Source: a virus
DNA length: 22,206 bases
Strand: one strand, 5' to 3'
Virus record (IMG/VR): IMGVR_UViG_3300030101_000688
Location: 1 to 22,206 of that record
The stretch's first letter is position 1; each line of letters starts with the position of its first letter. The notes under the pieces were generated by a model. It ran no database searches. It was not told the DNA's origin and saw nothing but the letters and a program-made list of their open reading frames with translations. Shown here piece by piece: positions 1,458-22,206 of the stretch. The position numbers and the translations under genes were made by a program.

Positions 1458-3350
1458 ATGGCTGTATTCAGAGCATTTAAACCAGAAGCGATGAATAAAA
1501 TCGCCAAGAGCATGGGCTATACAGGCAACATGAGTCAGTTCCAAGACTTCATTGAGCAAGACCCCGCGCGTCAGGCACGTATGCAGCAGTTTACTAACGC
1601 CGCTATGCAGATGGCAAAGGGTGGTGTAGTAAAGATGCAGACTGGTGGTACAACACCACCTGCTGCACAAGCACAGCAAACTAATATTGGTGAGTCTACT
1701 GTACAGCGAATGTATGCACCGGGTTTGCCGCAAGGTGGGGTAACACAAGCGGCATTTACACCAAGTGAAGCTGGTCAGTATGTAGACCCACGCACAGGTG
1801 TGATGACAGGCTCTGTTGCAGTTCCAACCGCTGTGGCTGCTGCACAACAAGCTACCACATCACAAGAGCAACAAGCTAATGTGATGCAAGCCAGCACAGC
1901 CGCACCAGCCATTGATGCAGCAGTCGAGGCTACCCAAGCGGCACAGGTTGCTCCAGACCCCCGCACAGAGGTCACAGCGGCCCAGCAAACAGCATCCAGT
2001 GTAGGCAATGTAACTGCTGCACAGGGTAATGCCATTCTGATTGACAATCCTGTGCAACGAAACATTCAGCAGGGCGAACTTGTTTCGGGTGCTGCTAATG
2101 CACAGACAGCCGCGCAGTTTGCAGAACAGGTCCAAGCTGCTGAAGCTACTCCTTCCACACAGGCTACTGTTCAAGGTCAGCTTGCTTCTCTCACTGAAAA
2201 CTTTGACGCAAAGAACCCACCAGCATGGGCCGCAGGTGCATTGCGTAATGCAAATGCACAGATGGTTGCTCGTGGTCTTGGTGCAAGCAGTATCGCTGGT
2301 CAGGCTATTGTACAGGCTACGATGGAAGCGGCCCTTCCTATCGCACAAGCAGATGCGGCTATCCTTGCACAGTTTGAACAACAGAACTTGTCAAATCGTC
2401 AACAACGTGCTATACTGGCTGCGCAACAACGCGCCGCATTTATGGACATGGAGTTTACGCAAGAGTTTCAAGCGCGTGTACAAAATGCTGCAAAGATTAG
2501 CGATATAGCTAATATGAATTTTACTGCGGAGCAGCAGGTTCAACTTGAAAACAGCCGTATTGCCAACACAGTAAACCTCAACAACCTGTCTAATGCGCAA
2601 GCAATGGTTATGGCAGAGGCATCTGCTCTTGCACAAATGGATGCATCCAATCTAAACAATCGTCAGCAAGCTGCTGTTGCAAATGCGCAGTCTTTCCTAA
2701 ATCTAGATATGGCAAATCTTTCTAATCGGCAGCAGACTGATTTGTTTAAAGCACAACAACGAATACAATCTTTGTTTACTGACCAAGCTGCTGTCAACGC
2801 TGCGCGTCAGTTTAATGCATCTAGTCAAAATCAAGTTGACCAGTTCTTTGCTAATCTAGCAACGCAGACTTCGCAGTTTAATGCGACACAAACAAATGCA
2901 CAGGCACAGTTCAACGCTGGACAGGCAAACACTGTCAACCGATTTAACGCAGAAATAAACAATCAACGCGATCAGTTTAATGCACAAAACCAACTTGTCA
3001 TAGCACAAAACAATGCACAGTGGCGTCGTCAACTTGCTACAGCAGATACTGCTGCAGTCAATCGTGTAAACGAACTAAACGCTGCTGCAGTGCTTGACAT
3101 CTCCAAGCAAGCGTATGATAATCTGTGGAACTACTATGCTGACACAATGGAGTGGGCATGGACTTCTGCAGAGAATGACAAAGACCGTGTTGTACAAATG
3201 GCACTTGGTGAACTGTCTGCTAAGACACAAGCTAATCTGGCGCAGCTAAGACTAGACGCAGAAGAGAGTGGTGCTATCGGTGGTTTCTTTGCTGACGTTC
3301 TAACAAGTCAGGCTGGTAGTATTGCAAGTAAGATGTTAGGGTTTGGATAA
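1458..3350 (+). CDS. Ala/Gln/Asn-rich virion protein with hendecad repeats (putative internal/ejection protein)
   Basis: This 630-residue protein has three parts. Residues 1-60 form a compact N-terminal region (FKPEAMNKIAKSMGY, then a helical QARMQQFTNAAMQMAKGG). Residues 60-240 are low-complexity and rich in A, Q, T and P. From about 250 a long helical region follows. Within it, residues 310-440 repeat an N-[LF]-[ST]-N-R-Q-Q-like motif every 22 residues, and residues 451-510 repeat [QR]F-[NF]-A every 11 residues. The C-terminal 80 residues include a Trp/Tyr-rich patch (NLWNYYADTMEWAW) and a Gly-rich end. No enzyme motif is visible. Its place after the tail genes and before the 568- and 1282-aa proteins suggests an internal virion protein ejected into the host envelope, as with T7 gp14-gp16, but this is inference from size and order. 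The TAA stop overlaps the next ATG (TAATG). Confidence 0.8.
   Translation: MAVFRAFKPEAMNKIAKSMGYTGNMSQFQDFIEQDPARQARMQQFTNAAMQMAKGGVVKMQTGGTTPPAAQAQQTNIGESTVQRMYAPGLPQGGVTQAAFTPSEAGQYVDPRTGVMTGSVAVPTAVAAAQQATTSQEQQANVMQASTAAPAIDAAVEATQAAQVAPDPRTEVTAAQQTASSVGNVTAAQGNAILIDNPVQRNIQQGELVSGAANAQTAAQFAEQVQAAEATPSTQATVQGQLASLTENFDAKNPPAWAAGALRNANAQMVARGLGASSIAGQAIVQATMEAALPIAQADAAILAQFEQQNLSNRQQRAILAAQQRAAFMDMEFTQEFQARVQNAAKISDIANMNFTAEQQVQLENSRIANTVNLNNLSNAQAMVMAEASALAQMDASNLNNRQQAAVANAQSFLNLDMANLSNRQQTDLFKAQQRIQSLFTDQAAVNAARQFNASSQNQVDQFFANLATQTSQFNATQTNAQAQFNAGQANTVNRFNAEINNQRDQFNAQNQLVIAQNNAQWRRQLATADTAAVNRVNELNAAAVLDISKQAYDNLWNYYADTMEWAWTSAENDKDRVVQMALGELSAKTQANLAQLRLDAEESGAIGGFFADVLTSQAGSIASKMLGFG
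2385..3008 (+). repeat. 22-residue then 11-residue periodic helix repeats within the 630-aa virion protein
   Basis: Counting residues of the 630-aa protein, the repeat unit starts at 310 (NLSNRQQ), 332 (EFTQEFQ), 354 (NFTAEQQ), 376 (NLSNAQA), 398 (NLNNRQQ) and 420 (NLSNRQQ), exactly 22 residues apart. A second series places Phe at 452, 463, 474, 485, 496 and 507, exactly 11 residues apart, in a QFNA-like context. The period of 11 residues per three helical turns is the hendecad pattern of nearly straight or slightly right-handed coiled coils. The two blocks differ in register by two residues. The DNA itself is not a perfect tandem repeat, so the periodicity is held at protein level. Confidence 0.85.
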
Positions 3351-3583
3351 TGAGTGTAGAGCGTCAACCAGCAGTATTAGCTAGTCGCAACTTGAGGCGT
3401 GAAGTAGGAATGCTTCAACGTCAAAAAGCAAAAGCAGATTCTCCCATGAGAAAGGGTCTACTTGTTTCTAACAAAGTGGCACAGTCTCGCATGGATAGTG
3501 AGAACCAAGCTAAGACTGAAATAGAAAAAGTAATGGACGCTATCGCAGCCATCCGTGAGGGTATGTCAGAGGACACAGCATAA
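3350..3583 (+). CDS. small basic virion-block protein, 77 aa, unknown function
   Basis: The 77-residue product is hydrophilic and predicted helical, with a basic N-terminal half (RNLRREVGMLQRQKAKAD) and a more acidic C-terminal helix. It has no cysteine, membrane segment or enzyme motif that I can see. It is locked into the late block by one-base TAATG overlaps at both ends, so it is likely made together with the 630-aa and 165-aa products. The upstream Shine-Dalgarno is weak (TAGGG-like), which fits re-initiation after the preceding gene. I do not recognise the family. A structural or assembly-helper role is only inferred from position. Confidence 0.7.
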   Translation: MSVERQPAVLASRNLRREVGMLQRQKAKADSPMRKGLLVSNKVAQSRMDSENQAKTEIEKVMDAIAAIREGMSEDTA

Positions 3584-4080
3584 TGGCATTTAGAGAAACA
3601 TCAGACTTTGACTTGCCTATTCCGGGCATGGCGATGACCCATGAACTTGGGGCTAGGCCGTGGCAGTCTCCTCCGCAGATTACCACGGTAGAGGAAGGTA
3701 TTGACTTCTATCTGTCTCGTTTAGTAAATAGAAGCACAGCGTCTCGCCTAATTGAAATTATTGAAAAAGGCATACCTCTTACTGCTATTGCTGAAACACT
3801 GACTCTTGGTGGTGTTATGCAGGGCATACATACAATTGATGTGGCTGTTTTAGTCAATCCTGTTCTTGTGGAACTTATGGAAGGTCTTGCTAAAAATGCC
3901 GGTGTAGAGTATGTCACAGGGGATGAGGATGAGACTGAAGAGCCAGACGATGTGTTGCTACGTAACGCAATGGACACATTGTCTAAAAAAGATAGGGCTA
4001 TGTTTAGTCAAGATGAAGAACAAGAAGATACACCGGCTGAAGAGCCTACTGGTTTGATGTCACGTAGAGAGGAAGTGTAA
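3583..4080 (+). CDS. virion-block protein with acidic C-terminal tail, 165 aa
   Basis: The protein begins with an extended DFDLPIPGMAMTHELGARPW segment, then a mixed helical core (residues about 35-105) containing GIPLTAIAETLTLGGVMQG, and ends in a highly acidic disordered tail (DEDETEEPDD and QDEEQEDTPAEE). I have a general memory of similar proteins (an IPGM...ELGARPWQ start and an LGGVMQG core) in marine podoviruses and cyanophages, where they lie among structural genes without a defined role. A Shine-Dalgarno (AGAGGA) precedes the ATG, and the start overlaps the previous stop as TAATG; the stop overlaps the next start the same way. It begins M-A-F-R like its neighbour. A virion protein is likely; the specific function is unknown. 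Confidence 0.75.
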   Translation: MAFRETSDFDLPIPGMAMTHELGARPWQSPPQITTVEEGIDFYLSRLVNRSTASRLIEIIEKGIPLTAIAETLTLGGVMQGIHTIDVAVLVNPVLVELMEGLAKNAGVEYVTGDEDETEEPDDVLLRNAMDTLSKKDRAMFSQDEEQEDTPAEEPTGLMSRREEV

Positions 4081-5786
4081 TGGCTTTTAGATTACAATCT
4101 GCAATTGCGGGGGGTGCCAAAAGACTGTCTGAAAAGATGAAGGCTTTTGATGAAAACTACTATGAAACCATTAAAAACACTACCAGTGATCTAGCAAAAG
4201 AAGCCGGTCAAATTCGTAAAGATAGAATGAAAGCTGTAATTAATTATAGTGAAAAGGCTGGCATTTTACAGTCCGACTATGGATTGACAGATGGACAAGT
4301 GCAAGAACTACTTAGAGGTGGTCTGGGACGATTTGACCAGTTTGTGACGGCCATGAATAATGCTGAAGCTAAAGCTGCCACGGCACTACCGCCGGGAGCA
4401 GCAGGACCACTTCCCGCATTTGATCGTGCAAAAGCTGCACAAGCCTTGTTTAACATAGATAATGTAAATGAAGATGCTATTCTTACTGTGGCAGAACAAG
4501 GTCAAGCATATGCAGCTAAAATGTTTCCGTCTAGTTTTGATCTGGAAGCGACATCTCAAGCTGCGGCGACTGGCATTCAGCGTGGCTTCTTGAAGGTTGA
4601 TGCTGCAGATATTGCACCTAAACTGCGCAGTGCTATTGGTGACTTGGCAGATGATAATATTCGTCAGCTTGGTTCTACAGGCATTACGATTGAAGGTCTG
4701 GGTACGCTACAAGTATCTGAACTGACTGCACTTAAACAGCAGATTGCTCAACTTGAAAGCACTCTGGCGGGTAAAAAACAAACAGAAGCGCAGACACGTC
4801 TTGTTGAAGAAAATATTCTAACTACTCAAAGTGCTAGAAAAATTGCAGAGGCTGCAGAAAAACGTACTGCAGAACTGTTTCCCGTTGTTAAAAGAAATGA
4901 GCAGCTTAAAGCGCGTGAGATTGCTACAGGTATTACATCTAATCGTTTGTCGGCTGACAAACTTAGAGAAGAGATTGCTATCTTACAAGAAACTGGTATG
5001 GATGCTGCAGAACTTGCTATTGAATTGACTCGCGCACAGATTCTTAGTGAGGGTAATTTTGACAGCGTAGAAGAACTCTTTGCTGGCACTGTATCTCTTC
5101 GTGACAAAGCCGCAGCCAAACTTGCTGCACTAAAAGCTGATCCAGACAAAGCGGGATCAACTGAACTGGCGCAAGCGGAAGCCCTTGTGTCTATGTATGA
5201 TGCTGCAGTTGTAAGGAATGCAGAATTGTATGGTAATAATATTAGTGACGATATTCTTAGTAAGGTAAACCTTGACTCTGCTTTCAAAGATGCAGTCAAA
5301 CAAAATGCCGGTGGACTTGATATCGGGGCTATATATGGTAGCTTTGAAGCAGGTCTTGATGTTGCACTGGGAGAAGATGGGCAGCTTCCTGAGTTTTTCA
5401 CAGCAGTAGACGATGCAATCGCAGAGATGCGCCAACGATTTGGCGGACTTAAAGCTGGCGCAGACTTTATCGCTGCCAAGGAAACATCTTTGATAAATCA
5501 AATTAATTCCTATGCCCGGAAAGACGATACCAAAATATATGAAGTTAATGGTACAAAAATGGATGAACAAGATACCATTCACTCATTTGGAAATACTCGT
5601 GCAGAAAATCAAGAACTTATCAATACACTAAAAAGTTTGCCCAATCTTGAAAAAGGTATGGTTATTTATGTAAAGTCAAACAGTGAGCCTCCATTCATTA
5701 CAACGACAGCAGGTACTCAAATACCTAATCCTAAACATCTACCGGGCCGCTTCTATGTATATGGTTCTAGCAACGAATGGCTATAA
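4080..5786 (+). CDS. large helical virion-block protein, 568 aa (putative internal virion protein)
   Basis: The 568-residue product is mostly helical and rich in Ala, Glu, Leu and Lys. It has coiled-coil-like stretches around residues 10-60 and 215-330, for example LTALKQQIAQLESTLAGKKQ. The last 90 residues (after about 475) change character to a beta-type, Gly/Asn/Pro-containing domain with FYVYGSSNEWL at the end. I see no signal peptide, membrane segment or catalytic motif. Size, helical character and position between the 630- and 1282-aa genes match the middle gene of a three-gene internal-protein set such as T7 gp14-gp15-gp16. That match is positional; no sequence similarity to T7 gp15 is claimed. 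GAGGAAG provides a Shine-Dalgarno ahead of the ATG, and the next gene starts three bases after the stop. Confidence 0.75.
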   Translation: MAFRLQSAIAGGAKRLSEKMKAFDENYYETIKNTTSDLAKEAGQIRKDRMKAVINYSEKAGILQSDYGLTDGQVQELLRGGLGRFDQFVTAMNNAEAKAATALPPGAAGPLPAFDRAKAAQALFNIDNVNEDAILTVAEQGQAYAAKMFPSSFDLEATSQAAATGIQRGFLKVDAADIAPKLRSAIGDLADDNIRQLGSTGITIEGLGTLQVSELTALKQQIAQLESTLAGKKQTEAQTRLVEENILTTQSARKIAEAAEKRTAELFPVVKRNEQLKAREIATGITSNRLSADKLREEIAILQETGMDAAELAIELTRAQILSEGNFDSVEELFAGTVSLRDKAAAKLAALKADPDKAGSTELAQAEALVSMYDAAVVRNAELYGNNISDDILSKVNLDSAFKDAVKQNAGGLDIGAIYGSFEAGLDVALGEDGQLPEFFTAVDDAIAEMRQRFGGLKAGADFIAAKETSLINQINSYARKDDTKIYEVNGTKMDEQDTIHSFGNTRAENQELINTLKSLPNLEKGMVIYVKSNSEPPFITTTAGTQIPNPKHLPGRFYVYGSSNEWL

Positions 5787-5789
5787 ACA

Positions 5790-8700
5790 ATGGCTTTGCG
5801 CGATATCTTAAACGGGCCGCAGGATACACAGCCAACTATCACTTCACCTAGCACTAGCATTGGTGGAGGGGGTTTGCGTAGGCTCATAGATGCATTTCCC
5901 GAAGATGAAACCACTTCTGCTATTCCCACTACGCCTATAGTAGAGGAAGAAGAGGAGGAACTTGAAGTCGTAGACAATGATGCTGCAATGATTGCAGACT
6001 ATCTGTCTGGCGATGATCCCTTTTATGACGAAGAATATCTCTCCAGTCTTGGCCCACAGAAACTTCTTGAGGTAATCAACGAAGAAGACCCTGCTCTGAT
6101 TGCCAAGTATTATCCTTCTCTCACAGGAGAAGGCTCCATCTCTGACGCCGAAATAGATGATATATCAAAAGGCGCAGAACTCATTCCCTATGATCCTACA
6201 TCCAGAGAAAAAGCGCAGTCTGTTATTGCACGAGCCATGCTTTCGTCTGGGCTTATATCAAACAACTTTACTGCACAACAGTTTGCACAAGGCGTTGTAG
6301 GAAATCCCACTGCTGAAAATATCCTAAATAGTTTTGGTGTAGCAGATATCACCCCTGTTGGTGCTATCTTTGCTATACAAGAAGCCCTGCGTGATGTAGA
6401 GCGTTTGAACAATGTGGATGCCAAGGCTACATCATATATTGTACCGGGCTTGGTGACTGCCCTGTCGATATTAGAGGCTGTACCTCTTACGAAAGCTGTA
6501 GCAAAACCTGCTATACGTGCGTTGCGTGGTGGCAAAGAGCCAGTAAAAATAAAGACAGTGGACGAAATTCTGGCAGAGGCAAAAGTTAAAGACGATGCCG
6601 CAAAGAAAGCAGCTAGAGACGACTATAATAATCGCAAGTATAACGTGTCTCGTGCCAAAGAGGCTACCGAAACGGCGCGAGAACAAAAAACTGCTGCTGC
6701 TAAAAAGAAAGCTAGTGAAAACCAAGAGATAAAAGAAGACATGATTAAGTCTTTTGAAGATAGGCTTAATGAAGGCAATACTGGTGAGCGTATCTCAATT
6801 TCTACTCGTGCTAAAAATGGCAAGCTGGTCATTGACCCGGACAAAGTTCGTGCTGCTGGAATGCAAGTTACAAATGATCTAGGTAATACAAACAAAGAAA
6901 TTTTAAAAGAGTTTTTCTCTCCTGAAGGTGAGTCTGTTGCTCGTCTGGTGGGAGTGGGAGATCAAATTGTCGAAACTGTTATCAAGCCCGATAAGTTTGA
7001 TGCTATGGTAGCACTTGCTGCTGATCTCAAGAAGATAAAACCACGAGCATTTGATAATGATAAAACTGTTATTGACAATCTGTTTGAACTGACAGTCAAT
7101 AAAGACTTAGGTCTTGAGGGTGATGACCTTATTGACATGCTCAACAAGTATGACTTGTCTTTTGAAGAGTACGTAGTTGGCCTTGTAGGTACAGGATCAA
7201 GAGCCGGTCAAGTGCTGTCAAAGCTATCGCAGATCAAACGATCCAGACCAGTGGCTGAAATGAGAGCCATGCAAGAGGCAGCGGAGCATGAGTCTCTGAT
7301 TGCCCGTGCTGCGGTCATGCGTATTGAAAACATTCGTCGTGGTGGTCTTGTCTCACAGATTGCTACCGCTGCACGTAACCTCACGTCTGGTGTTATTCGT
7401 GCGCCGTTAGAGGGTGTGGGTAATGTCATGGATACGGCTCTGTATCGCCTTAGTGAAGAAGGTGTACTGGCAAGTGCGAAGGCACTGTCTCCTGTTACCG
7501 TGCGCAAACCAGTTGTAGGAAAGGGTGTGTCAGGATATAGCCCCATTACTATGTCTACTGATTGGAAGGATAGCTTCCGTCATTTGAGATATATGTTTAC
7601 CGGCGACGGATATCTACAAGCCAAAGAATATAGTGACTTTATACTTGGGCGTCCTGAACTTACAAAGCAGGGCAACATGTTGCTCCAACAACTAAATGAA
7701 CTTCAAGCATCTGTTGGTCGTGGACGACCTACACAACGTCAAATTGAACGTCTAGTAGATGCAAAGCGCGTTGAGGCGCAAAATAAAAAAGTAAAGTTTG
7801 ATGAGGCTGCTGCTAGGGCAGAAGCAACAGAAGAAGCCAACCGCACTACACTGAAGATAATTCCTTCAGGAACAGTAGGTGAGAAATTAAGCAAGAGTGG
7901 AGACGCTCTCTTGTCCGCTCTAGAAGATGGTGTTGAGGTATTAAACTTGCCTAACCGCTGGCAAGAACATCTTATTAGGCGTGGTGCTTTCTTAGGTGAA
8001 CTGGAACGGCTAGTACGTAGAGAGTGGGGAGTTGACTTTATCCCCAAGGTAAACGAAGTTGGAATCCGTGACTTCTTAAATGACGCCTCTAGTGTACGCC
8101 CGAAAGATGGTAGGTCTTTCTATAATATTATAGATGATGCTACACAACGTGCATTAGATATCACTTATACAAAACAACCTGACCTCAAGGTATTCCGTGC
8201 TGCAACTTCATTCATCACTCGTAATGGTTTGACTGTTGTCATTCCATTCCCTCGCTTCATGTTCAATAGCATGGAACTGATGGCACAATACGGTGCGGGT
8301 GCAGTCCTTCCTCTCACTCGTAAGATTGCTAATGTTGCAACCGGCGGCAAGGCGTTTAAAGGAAAGTCAGGAACAGGTAAACTTACAGCAAAAGAAAGAC
8401 AAGGTATATCACGTAACGTAGTGGGTGGCTTTGGTGCTGCGCCAATTGGTCTTGTTGCGACAGGTGCTGTTTTTGATAAGGATGCATCTAACAGTGAGTC
8501 TTGGACAGACGATCTGCTAGGTATTGCTGTAGCTGGTGCGTGTTATCAGTACAGAACATCTGAAGATGCACCCTCTGACTATAAAATGCTTCGTATGTCA
8601 GATGGCACAATGATGGATACTACAACGCAGTATCCTTTGCGTCAGTGCCTATATATTGGCGAAGCCGCAAAACAGATACAGCAGGGTACATTTGAGAATT

Positions 8701-9638
8701 GGTTCAAGACCAAGGAATTTGCAGACACATTCATTGGTGTAAACGTCCGGGTAGGTGTGGGTAATAGTCTTGTACAAGAGATAACTAATCTTGCCTCTGG
8801 TACTGACCTCACTGCTGATGAGGCTGTAGGTCGTTCTGCTGGCAGGGCGTTGGGTAACTATCTGGCTACTTGGATGGTTCCGTTTGCGCAGGTCATTGAA
8901 CTTGAACGTGCGCTGGGAATTAGGGGGCTTGAGTTTAAGGATGTAGCTAAAGACCCTACACTGTCTGGATTTGACGCATTTTTATCTGCTCTTGCAAGAC
9001 CGTTTCGTGCCAGAGGATTTGGTGTTAGTCCAGCAGAAGAAGCAGCTATGCCAGCCCGTGAGCCTGTATTCCAAGAGGGGCCAGAACGTGTCGCTCCTCT
9101 AGCAAAAGTATTGCTTGGTCTTACACTCACGAAGGCAGACTCCGAAGAGGGTGAATATCTTGGTAAGTTTGGCTATACTGACTTTGAGATTGGTAGCCGG
9201 TCACGTGTGCCAACAGTGCGTAGATTTGAGAACCAAGTTATACGTAATGCGCTGCCTACAATTGTGCGCATAGCAAAACGTAGAGAGAAAAAACTCATTC
9301 AAGATTACAAAAATGCCAATGAAGAAACACGTAGGCTATACACACAAGATCAGTACGTTGCTGAAAAACTGCGTCCAATTATTCAAGGCACATTAGACCG
9401 TGCAAAGAATGAGTATCGTGGTAAAACGGTAGTCTTGAGAGATGTGCCTAAAGAAAATAGAAAATACGTAAAGGCCGTGATGGATGTTCGCAAGCTGTCT
9501 GGTGATGATATGGATGCTGCAATGATAGAATTTGTAGAGCGTAACAACAGAGAACCTGACCCTAAAAGTGCGGCTGACCTAGCAGAAATATACAAGATAG
9601 GTAAGAAGTATAGCGGAATAGGTAGAAAAAGAAAATAA
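5790..9638 (+). CDS. giant virion protein, 1282 aa (putative gp16-like ejection protein)
   Basis: This is the largest and last gene of the + strand block. The N-terminus is disordered, with a run of six Glu at residues 52-57. Amphipathic or hydrophobic stretches occur at about 217-245 (VPGLVTALSILEAVPLTKAV), 807-841 (LTVVIPFPRFMFNSMELMAQ) and 876-905 (FGAAPIGLVATGAV), broken by a Lys/Ala-rich helix at about 255-318. The C-terminus is basic (KKYSGIGRKRK). I looked for a lysozyme or transglycosylase signature, as T7 gp16 has, and found none by eye. Large size, membrane-active-looking segments and last place in the block suggest a DNA-ejection channel component. An antirestriction or large polyvalent protein is a less likely alternative. 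Transcription probably ends at the hairpin two bases downstream. Confidence 0.75.
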   Translation: MALRDILNGPQDTQPTITSPSTSIGGGGLRRLIDAFPEDETTSAIPTTPIVEEEEEELEVVDNDAAMIADYLSGDDPFYDEEYLSSLGPQKLLEVINEEDPALIAKYYPSLTGEGSISDAEIDDISKGAELIPYDPTSREKAQSVIARAMLSSGLISNNFTAQQFAQGVVGNPTAENILNSFGVADITPVGAIFAIQEALRDVERLNNVDAKATSYIVPGLVTALSILEAVPLTKAVAKPAIRALRGGKEPVKIKTVDEILAEAKVKDDAAKKAARDDYNNRKYNVSRAKEATETAREQKTAAAKKKASENQEIKEDMIKSFEDRLNEGNTGERISISTRAKNGKLVIDPDKVRAAGMQVTNDLGNTNKEILKEFFSPEGESVARLVGVGDQIVETVIKPDKFDAMVALAADLKKIKPRAFDNDKTVIDNLFELTVNKDLGLEGDDLIDMLNKYDLSFEEYVVGLVGTGSRAGQVLSKLSQIKRSRPVAEMRAMQEAAEHESLIARAAVMRIENIRRGGLVSQIATAARNLTSGVIRAPLEGVGNVMDTALYRLSEEGVLASAKALSPVTVRKPVVGKGVSGYSPITMSTDWKDSFRHLRYMFTGDGYLQAKEYSDFILGRPELTKQGNMLLQQLNELQASVGRGRPTQRQIERLVDAKRVEAQNKKVKFDEAAARAEATEEANRTTLKIIPSGTVGEKLSKSGDALLSALEDGVEVLNLPNRWQEHLIRRGAFLGELERLVRREWGVDFIPKVNEVGIRDFLNDASSVRPKDGRSFYNIIDDATQRALDITYTKQPDLKVFRAATSFITRNGLTVVIPFPRFMFNSMELMAQYGAGAVLPLTRKIANVATGGKAFKGKSGTGKLTAKERQGISRNVVGGFGAAPIGLVATGAVFDKDASNSESWTDDLLGIAVAGACYQYRTSEDAPSDYKMLRMSDGTMMDTTTQYPLRQCLYIGEAAKQIQQGTFENWFKTKEFADTFIGVNVRVGVGNSLVQEITNLASGTDLTADEAVGRSAGRALGNYLATWMVPFAQVIELERALGIRGLEFKDVAKDPTLSGFDAFLSALARPFRARGFGVSPAEEAAMPAREPVFQEGPERVAPLAKVLLGLTLTKADSEEGEYLGKFGYTDFEIGSRSRVPTVRRFENQVIRNALPTIVRIAKRREKKLIQDYKNANEETRRLYTQDQYVAEKLRPIIQGTLDRAKNEYRGKTVVLRDVPKENRKYVKAVMDVRKLSGDDMDAAMIEFVERNNREPDPKSAADLAEIYKIGKKYSGIGRKRK

Positions 9639-17036: not shown

Positions 17037-19079
17037 TCACGACACATCTTTAGTGTCAAGCCAGTTGGGGCCAATTTTTGCCTCTAGTTCTAATGGAACA
17101 TTGAACACTAACCCCCAACGTATAGCGATCAAGTCAGGCAGCACCCTGTTAGTTTCCTGAATTACTTCGATAACTCTTTGTTCTTCATCAGGATGAACGT
17201 CAACTACGATGCTATCGTGTACAGTATTTACCACACAAGAGTGCATACTGTCAAGTAGTTTTTCTATGTGCAGCAGGGCAATCGGTACAATATCTGCCGT
17301 TGCAAAGGACTGTACAGGATAGTTTTTGATTTGTGTAAAATGTGACACACGCCCACTTGCCTTGCGGACTACATCAGGGAAAGCAAACTGCCTACCTGAT
17401 GGGGTGGTAATGCACCCCGTGTTTATAGCTTCTTTAGCCAATCGGGTGTGCCATACCCCGATCCCTTTGTACTTCTCCGTGAAGTGTGAATAATACTCTG
17501 CTTCCGCTGGCGTTCTCCCAAAGCCCGTTGCGCCATAAAGCGGTGCAAACGTGTGAGCCTTCGCAGTCTGGCGATCCGTAGGTTGACCAGCATCGGTAAT
17601 AACTTTAGCGGTATATGAGTGTACATCAAACCCAGTAGATACTTCATCTATAGCAACTCCATCTTGTGAAAGGAATGCTGCTGCGCGAAACTCTAGCTGT
17701 GCGAAGTCAGCTTCCATAATCTTGCCACTCTCCCACCGGGACACGAACACCTTCTTGACAGGAAAGGTGCCGCCACGTGGCATGTTCTGCATGTTAGGCT
17801 CTGCGCCTGACAGTCGCCCTGTAGTGGTGCGATGTTGAAGCAAACGAACATGCAGCTTACCATCTTTCTTGGTAAACATCTTGATGCCCTCAACAAACGA
17901 GGACAGATATGTATCAACAGCAGATAAGCGTCGAACTTTTGACAGGAAGTCTACAGCATCTGTCATTCCCTTGACACGTGCTGCTTTCTCCAATATCTCA
18001 AGGTTTAGCTTGCTCGTGCTGAAGCCGTTGGCACTAGCCCACTTTGCTGACGGGGGCTTGAACTTTAGCCCAGCCACGGCATTGGATGGTGATAAAAGAT
18101 AGCCAGCAGTATCACAAGTAGGGCAGCGATTAGGTTTCGCAAATGGCTCTCCATTTTTCTTTACCTTTCGTACGTAGCCTGTTCCATTACAGGTCTTGCA
18201 TTGTGTTGCTCTGGTCTTGGCTAGCTTTGTGGTGTGTGCATTGACCAGCCTACGGAAGTCATCATCAGGCATGTATGGGTCAATCTGTGTGGCCCAGAAC
18301 TGCTTGTCGTTTACCTTGCGACTGTATATTACCCAAGACAATTGTTCTGGGCTGTTCAGGTTGATTGGGGTATCACCCATCAGCCTTCGCACATGGGCCT
18401 GTAGGTCATCTGTAAGCTGCTTACGCTCCTGCTCAAACTCTGTGCGCACCTCTTCCAGTGCATCACGATCTACGGTGAAACCCCGCTGATAGATGCGCGA
18501 CAGACATACTGCCACCTGATTGGTTAGGTCAACGGTACCCATAAGACCACTGTCCTTTGGTGTGTTCAGACGATACATTAGCTTGTCAGCCAGTTGCTGT
18601 GTAGCTTCAAGGTCAGCGATCAGGTACTCCGTCAGTTCATCAATAGGAATAGTGCGTGTGCTATATCCCCGCTTAAAATACTCTTTGAGAGTGTCTTGTT
18701 TCTTGGTATCAAGGTCATAGCGTTCTGCACATGCCTCAAGCGACAGCGGCTCCTTGATGCCACGTTGCAGCACGTACTCAGCCAGCATCGTATCGAACAC
18801 GGGACCATCATACTTGAAGCCACTCTCCCACAGCCACAGCAAGTCGTGTGCTGCATTGTGCATAATAAGCACAGTGGCCTCATCAAGAAACATCTGCACA
18901 CGATCACTATAGTCATGCCCACTCTCATGCTCTTCGTGGTCAAATGGGAATGTGTAACATGCCCCTTGGTCAGTCAGTATGCCCACCATAGTCAAGCTGT
19001 TGTTAGCCTCAAACGGATCAAGGTGCATCTTGCCGTCACGATGTGTGACTGTATTCTCTACATCTAATGTTATCTTCAT
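17037..19079 (-). CDS. family A DNA polymerase with 3'-5' exonuclease and DnaJ-like zinc-finger insertion
   Basis: The exonuclease domain comes first: Asp6/Glu8 (LDVENT), Asn75 and Asp79 (HNAAHD), Tyr152 and Asp156 (YLIAD). Between it and the polymerase domain, residues 294-326 hold two CxxC pairs (Cys294/297, Cys319/322), the first as CxxCxGxG like a DnaJ zinc finger. The polymerase domain has TGRLS at 420-424, motif A DFAQLEFR (Asp458), motif B with Lys507, Phe511 and Tyr515-Gly516, and motif C His621-Asp622-Ser623. Phe511 equals the position called 762 in E. coli Pol I. Motif C is usually His-Asp-Glu, so Ser623 is a change. At 680 residues it is near T7 gp5 size (704). Its ATG overlaps the helicase stop (ATGA). 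A partial DnaJ domain is known in phage HMO-2011 polymerase. Confidence 0.95.
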   Translation of the reverse strand: MKITLDVENTVTHRDGKMHLDPFEANNSLTMVGILTDQGACYTFPFDHEEHESGHDYSDRVQMFLDEATVLIMHNAAHDLLWLWESGFKYDGPVFDTMLAEYVLQRGIKEPLSLEACAERYDLDTKKQDTLKEYFKRGYSTRTIPIDELTEYLIADLEATQQLADKLMYRLNTPKDSGLMGTVDLTNQVAVCLSRIYQRGFTVDRDALEEVRTEFEQERKQLTDDLQAHVRRLMGDTPINLNSPEQLSWVIYSRKVNDKQFWATQIDPYMPDDDFRRLVNAHTTKLAKTRATQCKTCNGTGYVRKVKKNGEPFAKPNRCPTCDTAGYLLSPSNAVAGLKFKPPSAKWASANGFSTSKLNLEILEKAARVKGMTDAVDFLSKVRRLSAVDTYLSSFVEGIKMFTKKDGKLHVRLLQHRTTTGRLSGAEPNMQNMPRGGTFPVKKVFVSRWESGKIMEADFAQLEFRAAAFLSQDGVAIDEVSTGFDVHSYTAKVITDAGQPTDRQTAKAHTFAPLYGATGFGRTPAEAEYYSHFTEKYKGIGVWHTRLAKEAINTGCITTPSGRQFAFPDVVRKASGRVSHFTQIKNYPVQSFATADIVPIALLHIEKLLDSMHSCVVNTVHDSIVVDVHPDEEQRVIEVIQETNRVLPDLIAIRWGLVFNVPLELEAKIGPNWLDTKDVS

Positions 19080-21086: not shown

Positions 21087-21983
21087 TTAAGTGCTTTTAC
21101 CATGTATTTTACGTGCTGTCAAGGCAGTATTTGCACTGGCATACGTATTTTTCATATAGGGTTTGACTGACTGTGGGTTAGCATGTCCTGTAACCGACAT
21201 AATTTGTCCAATACCGACACCAGCCTCGACCATTTCAGTTGTGCCAGTACGACGCAGGTCAGATAGTCGCAGTTCGCTTGACAATCCAGCCTCATCCATC
21301 AGCTTACGAGCGTGAAGCGGCAGCTTGTACTGGCTGTATGGAATGTACTCACCCCCAATTGGATTGGGGCGTGGTGCTACCCACTGCTGAAACCCAAAGT
21401 CTTCATGCTGTTGTTTTAACATATCCAGCAGATCGTCATCAATAGGCAAAAACACCTCTGCCCTACGCTTGGATTGCTCAATATGTACACGAGCCTTATC
21501 AAATTGTATACTTTCCCATGTCAATAATCGCATGTCTCCGACACGCTGGCACCAAGCGTATGCCATGTGAGCAATCAGACCAATGTTACGGGTGCTAAAA
21601 TCGCTGTACGCCACGTCTAGCAGCTTTTGTATATCCCCCCTACCCCAAAGCACCTTACGGGGCGTGGACGAGCGTCTACGGACGACAGAGAAGGGGTTCA
21701 GGTTGCAATGCTCCATCCGCACAGCGTAGTTGTACAGTATGCGGATAGTAGCCATGATATGATTAGCGAATGGAATGCCACGATCACACCACAAGTCATA
21801 CACCAACTTGGCTTGCTTGGTGGTGATGCTTGCATGGTTCAGAAAACCAAGGCTCGTACCGTCTACTTTTGTCTCAAATGCGACACGCAGAAAGTATTGA
21901 TACGAAGCCTTAGTCTCGTCACGCAAGTTCTTGAAATCATGGGAAGAAAAGTATTCATCCGCTATTTCTAGAACCGTTGTCAT
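21087..21983 (-). CDS. int: tyrosine recombinase (phage integrase)
   Basis: I start the gene at the ATG at 21983 (298 residues), one base after the stop of the preceding gene. A longer frame to 22139 would overlap that gene in another frame and adds a low-quality N-terminus. The N-terminal core-binding domain (about 1-105) is followed by a catalytic domain with Arg147 (CQRVGDM), candidate Lys182 (IEQSKRRAEV), Arg244 (SDLRRTG), His267 (VTGHANP) and the nucleophile Tyr276 (VKPYMK), with the usual nine-residue His-to-Tyr spacing. The first position of the HxxR motif is Ser241 instead of His. The enzyme would join phage and host att sites; no attP or repressor is visible in the window. It leads the replication genes rather than forming a separate lysogeny module. 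Confidence 0.88.
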   Translation of the reverse strand: MTTVLEIADEYFSSHDFKNLRDETKASYQYFLRVAFETKVDGTSLGFLNHASITTKQAKLVYDLWCDRGIPFANHIMATIRILYNYAVRMEHCNLNPFSVVRRRSSTPRKVLWGRGDIQKLLDVAYSDFSTRNIGLIAHMAYAWCQRVGDMRLLTWESIQFDKARVHIEQSKRRAEVFLPIDDDLLDMLKQQHEDFGFQQWVAPRPNPIGGEYIPYSQYKLPLHARKLMDEAGLSSELRLSDLRRTGTTEMVEAGVGIGQIMSVTGHANPQSVKPYMKNTYASANTALTARKIHGKST

Positions 21984-21984
21984 G

Positions 21985-22206
21985 TTATGCAGCCCTCTTC
22001 TCACGGACAAGAGATTGGAACTGCGAGGTGTTTGCCCACTTGGCTGCGTCATATTCACGCAGTAGCATGTTGTATGCCTGTGTGTCATTGCCTGTCTCAC
22101 GCAGCTTGAAACCATTACGCTCATCAGCATAGGTTGCATAGTTTGTGAAGGCAGAGTACAACGCCCACAGGTTCTGACCTCGCGTTGTCACCTCTTCACG
22201 GTACAA
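21985..22206 (-). CDS. DUF932-like phage protein, C-terminal part (5' end outside window)
   Basis: The frame is open to the right edge, so this is the last 73 residues of a longer protein. The first visible codon is TTG, so no start is claimed. The segment RGQNLWALYSAFTNYATYAD and the following AKWANTSQFQSLVREK resemble the C-terminal end of DUF932 proteins, which are found in phages and plasmids next to replication genes and whose function is unknown. Its stop TAA is one base before the integrase ATG, so the two are probably co-translated. With only a fragment in view the family call is moderate. Confidence 0.55.
   Translation of the reverse strand: MYREEVTTRGQNLWALYSAFTNYATYADERNGFKLRETGNDTQAYNMLLREYDAAKWANTSQFQSLVREKRAA

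Follow-up and report, generated by a model that had tools for sequence, protein, structure and literature searches.

What does a long tract of exactly spaced repeats do in a virion-type protein of a short-tailed phage? The question is raised by a 22.2-kb virus record of the HMO-2011 type (IMGVR_UViG_3300030101_000688; 22,206 nucleotides, analysed at full length and called the window below), whose structural module has the same gene order as that of Puniceispirillum phage HMO-2011. The HMO-2011-type podoviruses rank with the most abundant virus groups known from the ocean, and the HMO-2011-like RCA phages are podoviruses with short tails (PMC6918029); the rod described here bears on how such phages cross the cell envelope. 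The window encodes a ribonucleotide reductase and, on its minus strand, an A-family DNA polymerase (17037-19079) whose internal DnaJ-type CXXCXGXG zinc finger (residues 288-328) is an HMO-2011 hallmark. A tyrosine recombinase of the phage integrase family (21087-22139, minus strand, E 1.7e-17) is also present in this HMO-2011-type genome.

The rod protein and its homologues

The rod protein (630 aa; 1458-3350, plus strand) is a homologue of the hypothetical protein phage1322_25 of HMO-2011, with 68% identity over the full length. Direct homologues, at 25-68% identity, include phage1322_25 and proteins of CRP, HTVC, CHOED, MQM1, Slicky01 and Rhizobium/Sinorhizobium phages, all annotated as hypothetical in the records examined save one called 'huntingtin'. 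This label, on a freshwater homologue (L083, 3900-6491), is a misannotation, probably caused by richness in Gln and Pro. No convincing family for the rod protein emerged from Pfam (no match), PHROG (one weak hit) or NCBIfam, and PDB profile searches returned noise. The match of one rod-family member to phrog_1958, 'minor tail protein' (E 0.0048), was discarded as probably an effect of composition. Prophage carriage was set aside as well: the matches in genome contigs are all on MAG contigs, probably binned phage contigs.

The chain starts with a helical head (residues 1-53; 1458-1616), predicted by AF2 at a pLDDT of ~85-92 for residues 11-50, in which the opening MAxFxAFKP is conserved among relatives. 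An Ala/Pro/Gly-rich linker of variable length (residues 54-235; 1617-2162; AF2 pLDDT mostly 30-57) leads to a conserved collar (residues 236-293; 2163-2336). Then comes the rod: block 1 (residues 294-447; 2337-2798) has 14 hendecads alternating as 22-residue units of the NLSNRQQ type, and block 2 (residues 448-524; 2799-3029) has 7 hendecads of the QFNA type, with one Phe per 11 residues. It is followed by a register continuation of fixed length (residues 525-568; 3030-3161) and a variable C-terminal tail (residues 569-630; 3162-3347), all on the plus strand. A Pfam Peptidase_S74 domain stands at the C-terminus instead in the rod proteins of CRP-3 (L088, 5215-7071) and L148 (1505-4024); those of CRP-212 and CRP-235 (L236 and L237) have an S74-like C-terminus too, as judged by reading. 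In one relative (L130, 4540-7956) the rod ORF carries an N-terminal extension of ~500 aa without a Pfam match.

A single 11-residue frame

The periodicity of 22 and 11 residues that had been counted by eye in the tract holds up, exceeding every composition-preserving shuffle. In a BLOSUM62 autocorrelation of residues 310-520, z reaches 8.1 at lag 22, 5.6 at lag 33, 5.2 at lag 44 and 4.5 at lag 11, against a null maximum of 4.3 over all lags in 500 shuffles. Residues 445-520 alone give z = 5.7 at lag 11 and 6.5 at lag 33; residues 1-299 show no periodicity in the same autocorrelation. The phenylalanines of block 2 lie, as first described, exactly 11 apart, at 452, 463, 474, 485, 496 and 507. 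NLSNRQQ-like units had been placed every 22 residues from 310 to 420: those at 310, 376, 398 and 420 fit N[LIV][SN]N[RA]Q exactly, whereas those at 332 (EFTQEFQ) and 354 (NFTAEQQ) are degenerate, though still in register.

The preliminary description also saw a two-residue change of register between the blocks and a possible hinge there. When the sequence is set out 11 residues to a row starting at P294, position 6 holds Asn in both blocks (that of NLSN in one, that of FNA in the other) and position 5 holds Phe; the apparent shift arose because the Asn of one block had been compared with the Phe of the other. A single frame is kept without a break from P294 as far as W566 or beyond, which rules out a hinge made by a register shift and extends the tract from the original estimate of about 200 residues to ~270. 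The distance from W522 to W566 is 44 in every relative where the second Trp was located. The DNA of the tract shows no detectable tandem repeat, and the pattern is therefore old.

Rod length varies by whole hendecads

Repeat number was compared among related phages, and the rod is found to differ in length by whole 11-residue units. Between P294 and W522 it measures 118-668 residues in 394 relatives, in 17 size classes of 11-61 hendecads. With HMM-placed anchors and a single anchor pair, 393 of these 394 homologues are equal modulo 11 (8 mod 11), the sole exception, L169, having one inserted residue (+1). Five loci with two possible anchors were left out; choosing the in-class anchor for them gives 398/399. 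Since the homologues are kin rather than independent samples (195 share the rod length of the window), the useful number is that of the 17 classes, which correspond to at least 16 length changes, each a multiple of 11.

The P294-W522 distance of HMO-2011 is the same as in the window (difference 0). Nine distant named phages (phages of Pelagibacter, Roseobacter, Rhizobium/Sinorhizobium, Vibrio, Aeromonas and Pseudoalteromonas, and a freshwater podovirus) differ from the window by +110, +88, -44, -44, -55, -66, -66, -77 and -77. The collar just upstream serves as an internal control: in the same proteins it has 53, 54, 56, 57, 58 or 59 residues, not in steps of 11, so that indels there are not generally quantised. 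Among 80 close relatives, residues 232-570 contain no indel, and insertions are located in the N-terminal linker or at the C-terminus.

The scarcity of non-unit indels suggests a constraint on register. Steps of 11 could also arise, with no selection acting on register, if units were duplicated at the DNA level by recombination.

Across the family the rod would span ~18-100 nm, the longest (668-671 residues) reaching ~100 nm if straight. Across 13 phages its length shows no correlation with genome size (Spearman -0.24, p 0.42). Rods differ between phages that infect one and the same strain, FZCC0040 (165 residues in CRP-3, CRP-212 and CRP-235 versus 220 in CRP-207), which weakens the idea of a ruler matched to the periplasm of the host; rods of ~100 nm exceed the periplasm, and this argues against a simple periplasm-spanning ruler. 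By estimate, the longest rods would also be too long for a 55-60-kb capsid unless bent.

A probable helix with two opposite hydrophobic faces

Proline is absent from all 94,156 rod residues of the family, compared with 6.6% in the upstream regions. AF2, run with 40 sequences, models nearly all of residues 280-626 as helical, at low confidence (rod mean pLDDT 57, pTM 0.23). The predicted helix is interrupted at 333-336, 350-357 and 417-422 and is continuous at 310, 376 and 398, where NLSN units lie.

These breaks bear on a different architecture, a zigzag alpha-solenoid in which each 22-residue unit would be a helix plus an NLSN turn and the whole a compact superhelix instead of a rod. It is conceivable that NLSN could cap helices, and block 1 differs in length by 22s in every lineage but that of CRP-207/CRP-9 (-11). 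However, block 2 varies in steps of 11, a single register spans both blocks, and the lack of proline and the helices predicted through three NLSN units do not favour turns at these places. Loops, moreover, normally tolerate single-residue indels, and one non-unit indel was found in 394 proteins. We consider a solenoid very unlikely.

For a straight helix the next question is how its faces are arranged. The power of Gln peaks at 3.67 residues per turn (13.3, null maximum 2.6). Kyte-Doolittle hydropathy, in contrast, has almost no power there (1.3, null maximum 2.4) and peaks of 14.8 at 2.75 and 12.8 at 2.2 residues; in a wider set of 29 proteins covering the size classes, hydrophobic power is 2.8 at 3.67 versus 22.3 and 19.7 at the two shorter periods. 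On a helical wheel, Gln and Ser take positions 8, 11 and 1, charged residues 10 and 3, and Asn 6. Hydrophobic residues form one seam at 2/5/9, which includes the large Phe, and another at 4/7, which has the small Ala.

If the tract is helical, the harmonics at 2.75 and 2.2 would correspond to two opposite hydrophobic faces. As these are not one stripe, they lend no support to a simple coiled coil: of the features of a hendecad coiled coil, the exact 11-residue period is present in the tract and its relatives, and the single hydrophobic stripe is absent. The long straight hendecad helix first proposed thus survives in part. Its geometry of 11 residues per 3 turns agrees with the quantised indels, the lack of proline and the AF2 helices, whereas the classical one-stripe bundle has to be given up. 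The pattern supports instead a helix that would touch others on two sides, like those of a tube or a sheet. Beta alternation would be expected to produce these hydrophobic harmonics too; what argues for a helix is the Gln and charged faces, the composition and the AF2 models. A fold search with the rod model, itself of low confidence, brought up homologues and unrelated long helices only and was uninformative.

The same spectrum bears on a trimeric coiled-coil fibre, or a tail needle like P22 gp26, that would plug the tail or touch the cell. Peptidase_S74 acts as an intramolecular chaperone and is characteristic of tail appendages that are trimers; its presence at the C-terminus of the CRP-3 and L148 rod proteins speaks for such an appendage. 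Nonetheless, the domain was found only in the CRP-3-like branch and one contig, the heptad signal of a gp26-like needle is missing (lag-7 z 0.9, little power at 102.9 degrees per residue), and there is no single hydrophobic stripe at either 3.5 or 3.67 residues. A fibre or needle is accordingly a distinctly unlikely identity for the rod.

The genes that accompany the rod

A Gln/Asn/Ala-rich rod with a Phe column in a protein that may be ejected, as the preliminary description had it, fits the genomic setting, which resembles an ejection module. Downstream of the tail genes, the rod gene starts a conserved virion cassette with genes for proteins of 165, ~570 and ~1,280 aa. This cassette, in which insertions occur in some cases, is kept in HMO-2011, CRP-3, CHOED, phiM6 and others. 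The 165-aa partner (3583-4080, plus strand) is present in 12 of the 12 rod-bearing records tested and occurs even in records without a match to the window's polymerase. The largest protein (1,282 aa; 5790-9638, plus strand) is by size and position, without a sequence match to that kind, a candidate gp16-like ejection protein. In CRP-603, CRP-13 and CRP-207 a peptidoglycan hydrolase directly follows the rod gene (Hydrolase_2, SLT/Phage_lysozyme2, LysM plus GH19-like).

The protein encoded between the 165- and 1,282-aa ones (568 aa; 4080-5786, plus strand) is fast-evolving and helical in AF2. It is only ~31-34% identical to its homologues in phages whose rod proteins are ~85% identical, a divergence that suggests either fast change or exchange of modules. 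A fold search with its model gave generic helical matches only, with Z below 10; this was uninformative, and the missing T7 gp15-like matches are no evidence.

A candidate part of the ejection machinery

On balance, we see about an even chance that the tract is an alpha-helical, length-quantised rod in the genome-ejection machinery of HMO-2011-type and related podoviruses, possibly one that forms a tube; its role would probably be in carrying viral DNA into the cell. The tract would then be a continuous helix on a lattice of 11 residues per 3 turns, and the protein a member of the internal (ejection) set. Besides two opposite hydrophobic seams, each helix would present Gln on one face (8/11/1) and charge on another (3/10), and several copies could pack side by side in a sheet or a closed tube, for which the faces seem a better fit than for a coiled coil of two or three helices. 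Length would evolve by whole hendecads, in block 1 mostly by pairs, because other indels would break the register of the lateral contacts. It is possible that the virion stores the rods and that, during infection, they contribute to a conduit across the envelope, perhaps lined with amides, together with the 165-, ~570- and ~1,280-aa proteins and, in some relatives, the peptidoglycan hydrolase. The rod may, as the preliminary description proposed, build either a trans-periplasmic tube or a bundle inside the capsid. The literature consulted yielded no virion proteomics or membrane data on rod proteins.

A bolder version, possible but doubtful in our view, is that short-tailed phages have a modular DNA-conducting tube or tape of their own: a register-locked helical protein of digital length, set in 11-residue (16.5 Å) steps over ~18-100 nm. 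Such a protein would be unrelated in sequence to the tape measure and H proteins. The variation in exact units supplies natural variants with which to ask whether the rod acts as ruler, tube or spool.

Comparison with known systems

The ejection proteins gp14, gp15 and gp16 of T7 and gp7, gp20 and gp16 of P22 resemble the rod cassette in that their genes cluster next to the tail genes and encode a small, a middle-sized and a large virion protein, and peptidoglycan hydrolase activity near the cassette in some relatives adds to the likeness. HMM comparison of the rod with these six proteins gave no match (best E 0.034), and unlike the rod they lack an 11-residue periodicity: in a common periodicity test at lags 11 and 22, z is at most 3.3 for the T7 and P22 proteins, 6.0/6.9 for the rod and 8.6/9.5 for the tape measure protein (TMP) of TP901-1.

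In this respect the rod is closer to siphophage TMPs, whose 11-residue units, marked by an aromatic residue (W/F), have been described (PMC3271669, PMC5099701). The TMPs of the lactococcal phage TP901-1 and other siphophages also share with it unit-wise length evolution and, as proposed for the rod, a mostly helical character and co-delivery with DNA. The rod might then act like a tape measure within the virion, setting or stabilising a core stack or the tail lumen and leaving before the DNA without forming a tube. Several differences make this rather unlikely. HMM comparison with the TP901-1 TMP gave no match (E 1.1), and none of 12 rod-bearing records matches TIGR01760. The rod is rich in Gln and Asn instead of hydrophobic and lies in another gene neighbourhood: in HMO-2011 neither a major tail tube gene nor a chaperone gene is annotated beside it, and the HMO-2011-like RCA virions have short tails, not long ones (PMC6918029).

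A solved structure with which a possibly tube-forming rod can be compared is the DNA pilot protein H of phiX174, a decameric alpha-helical tube (PDB 4JPP). The solved H tube contains three hendecads (PMC7354561), followed, unlike in the rod, by heptads. No homology is detectable between the two, and the rod profiles A1 and A2 retrieved neither 4jpp nor 4jpn from the PDB. Both have Gln on one helical face and no single hydrophobic stripe; the amide side chains of the rod cluster on one face, as they would in an H-like tube. The hendecads of H from phiX174, G4 and NC3 follow the rod's rank order of hydrophobic harmonics, with the 3.67 term the weakest, and their Gln is likewise strongest at 3.67. 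Position profiles of H and the rod match best in register (permutation p = 0.045), which is suggestive only. Tube length also varies between relatives of H: G4 H (L247, 1-405) has 14 more residues in its coiled-coil region than phiX174 H, that is, two heptads.

Both kinds, the 11-residue units of tape measures and the H tube, are already known, and by analogy the rod may be a variant of these. In mechanism it could correspond, within the short-tailed phages, to the tape measures of siphophages and to the tube of phiX174.
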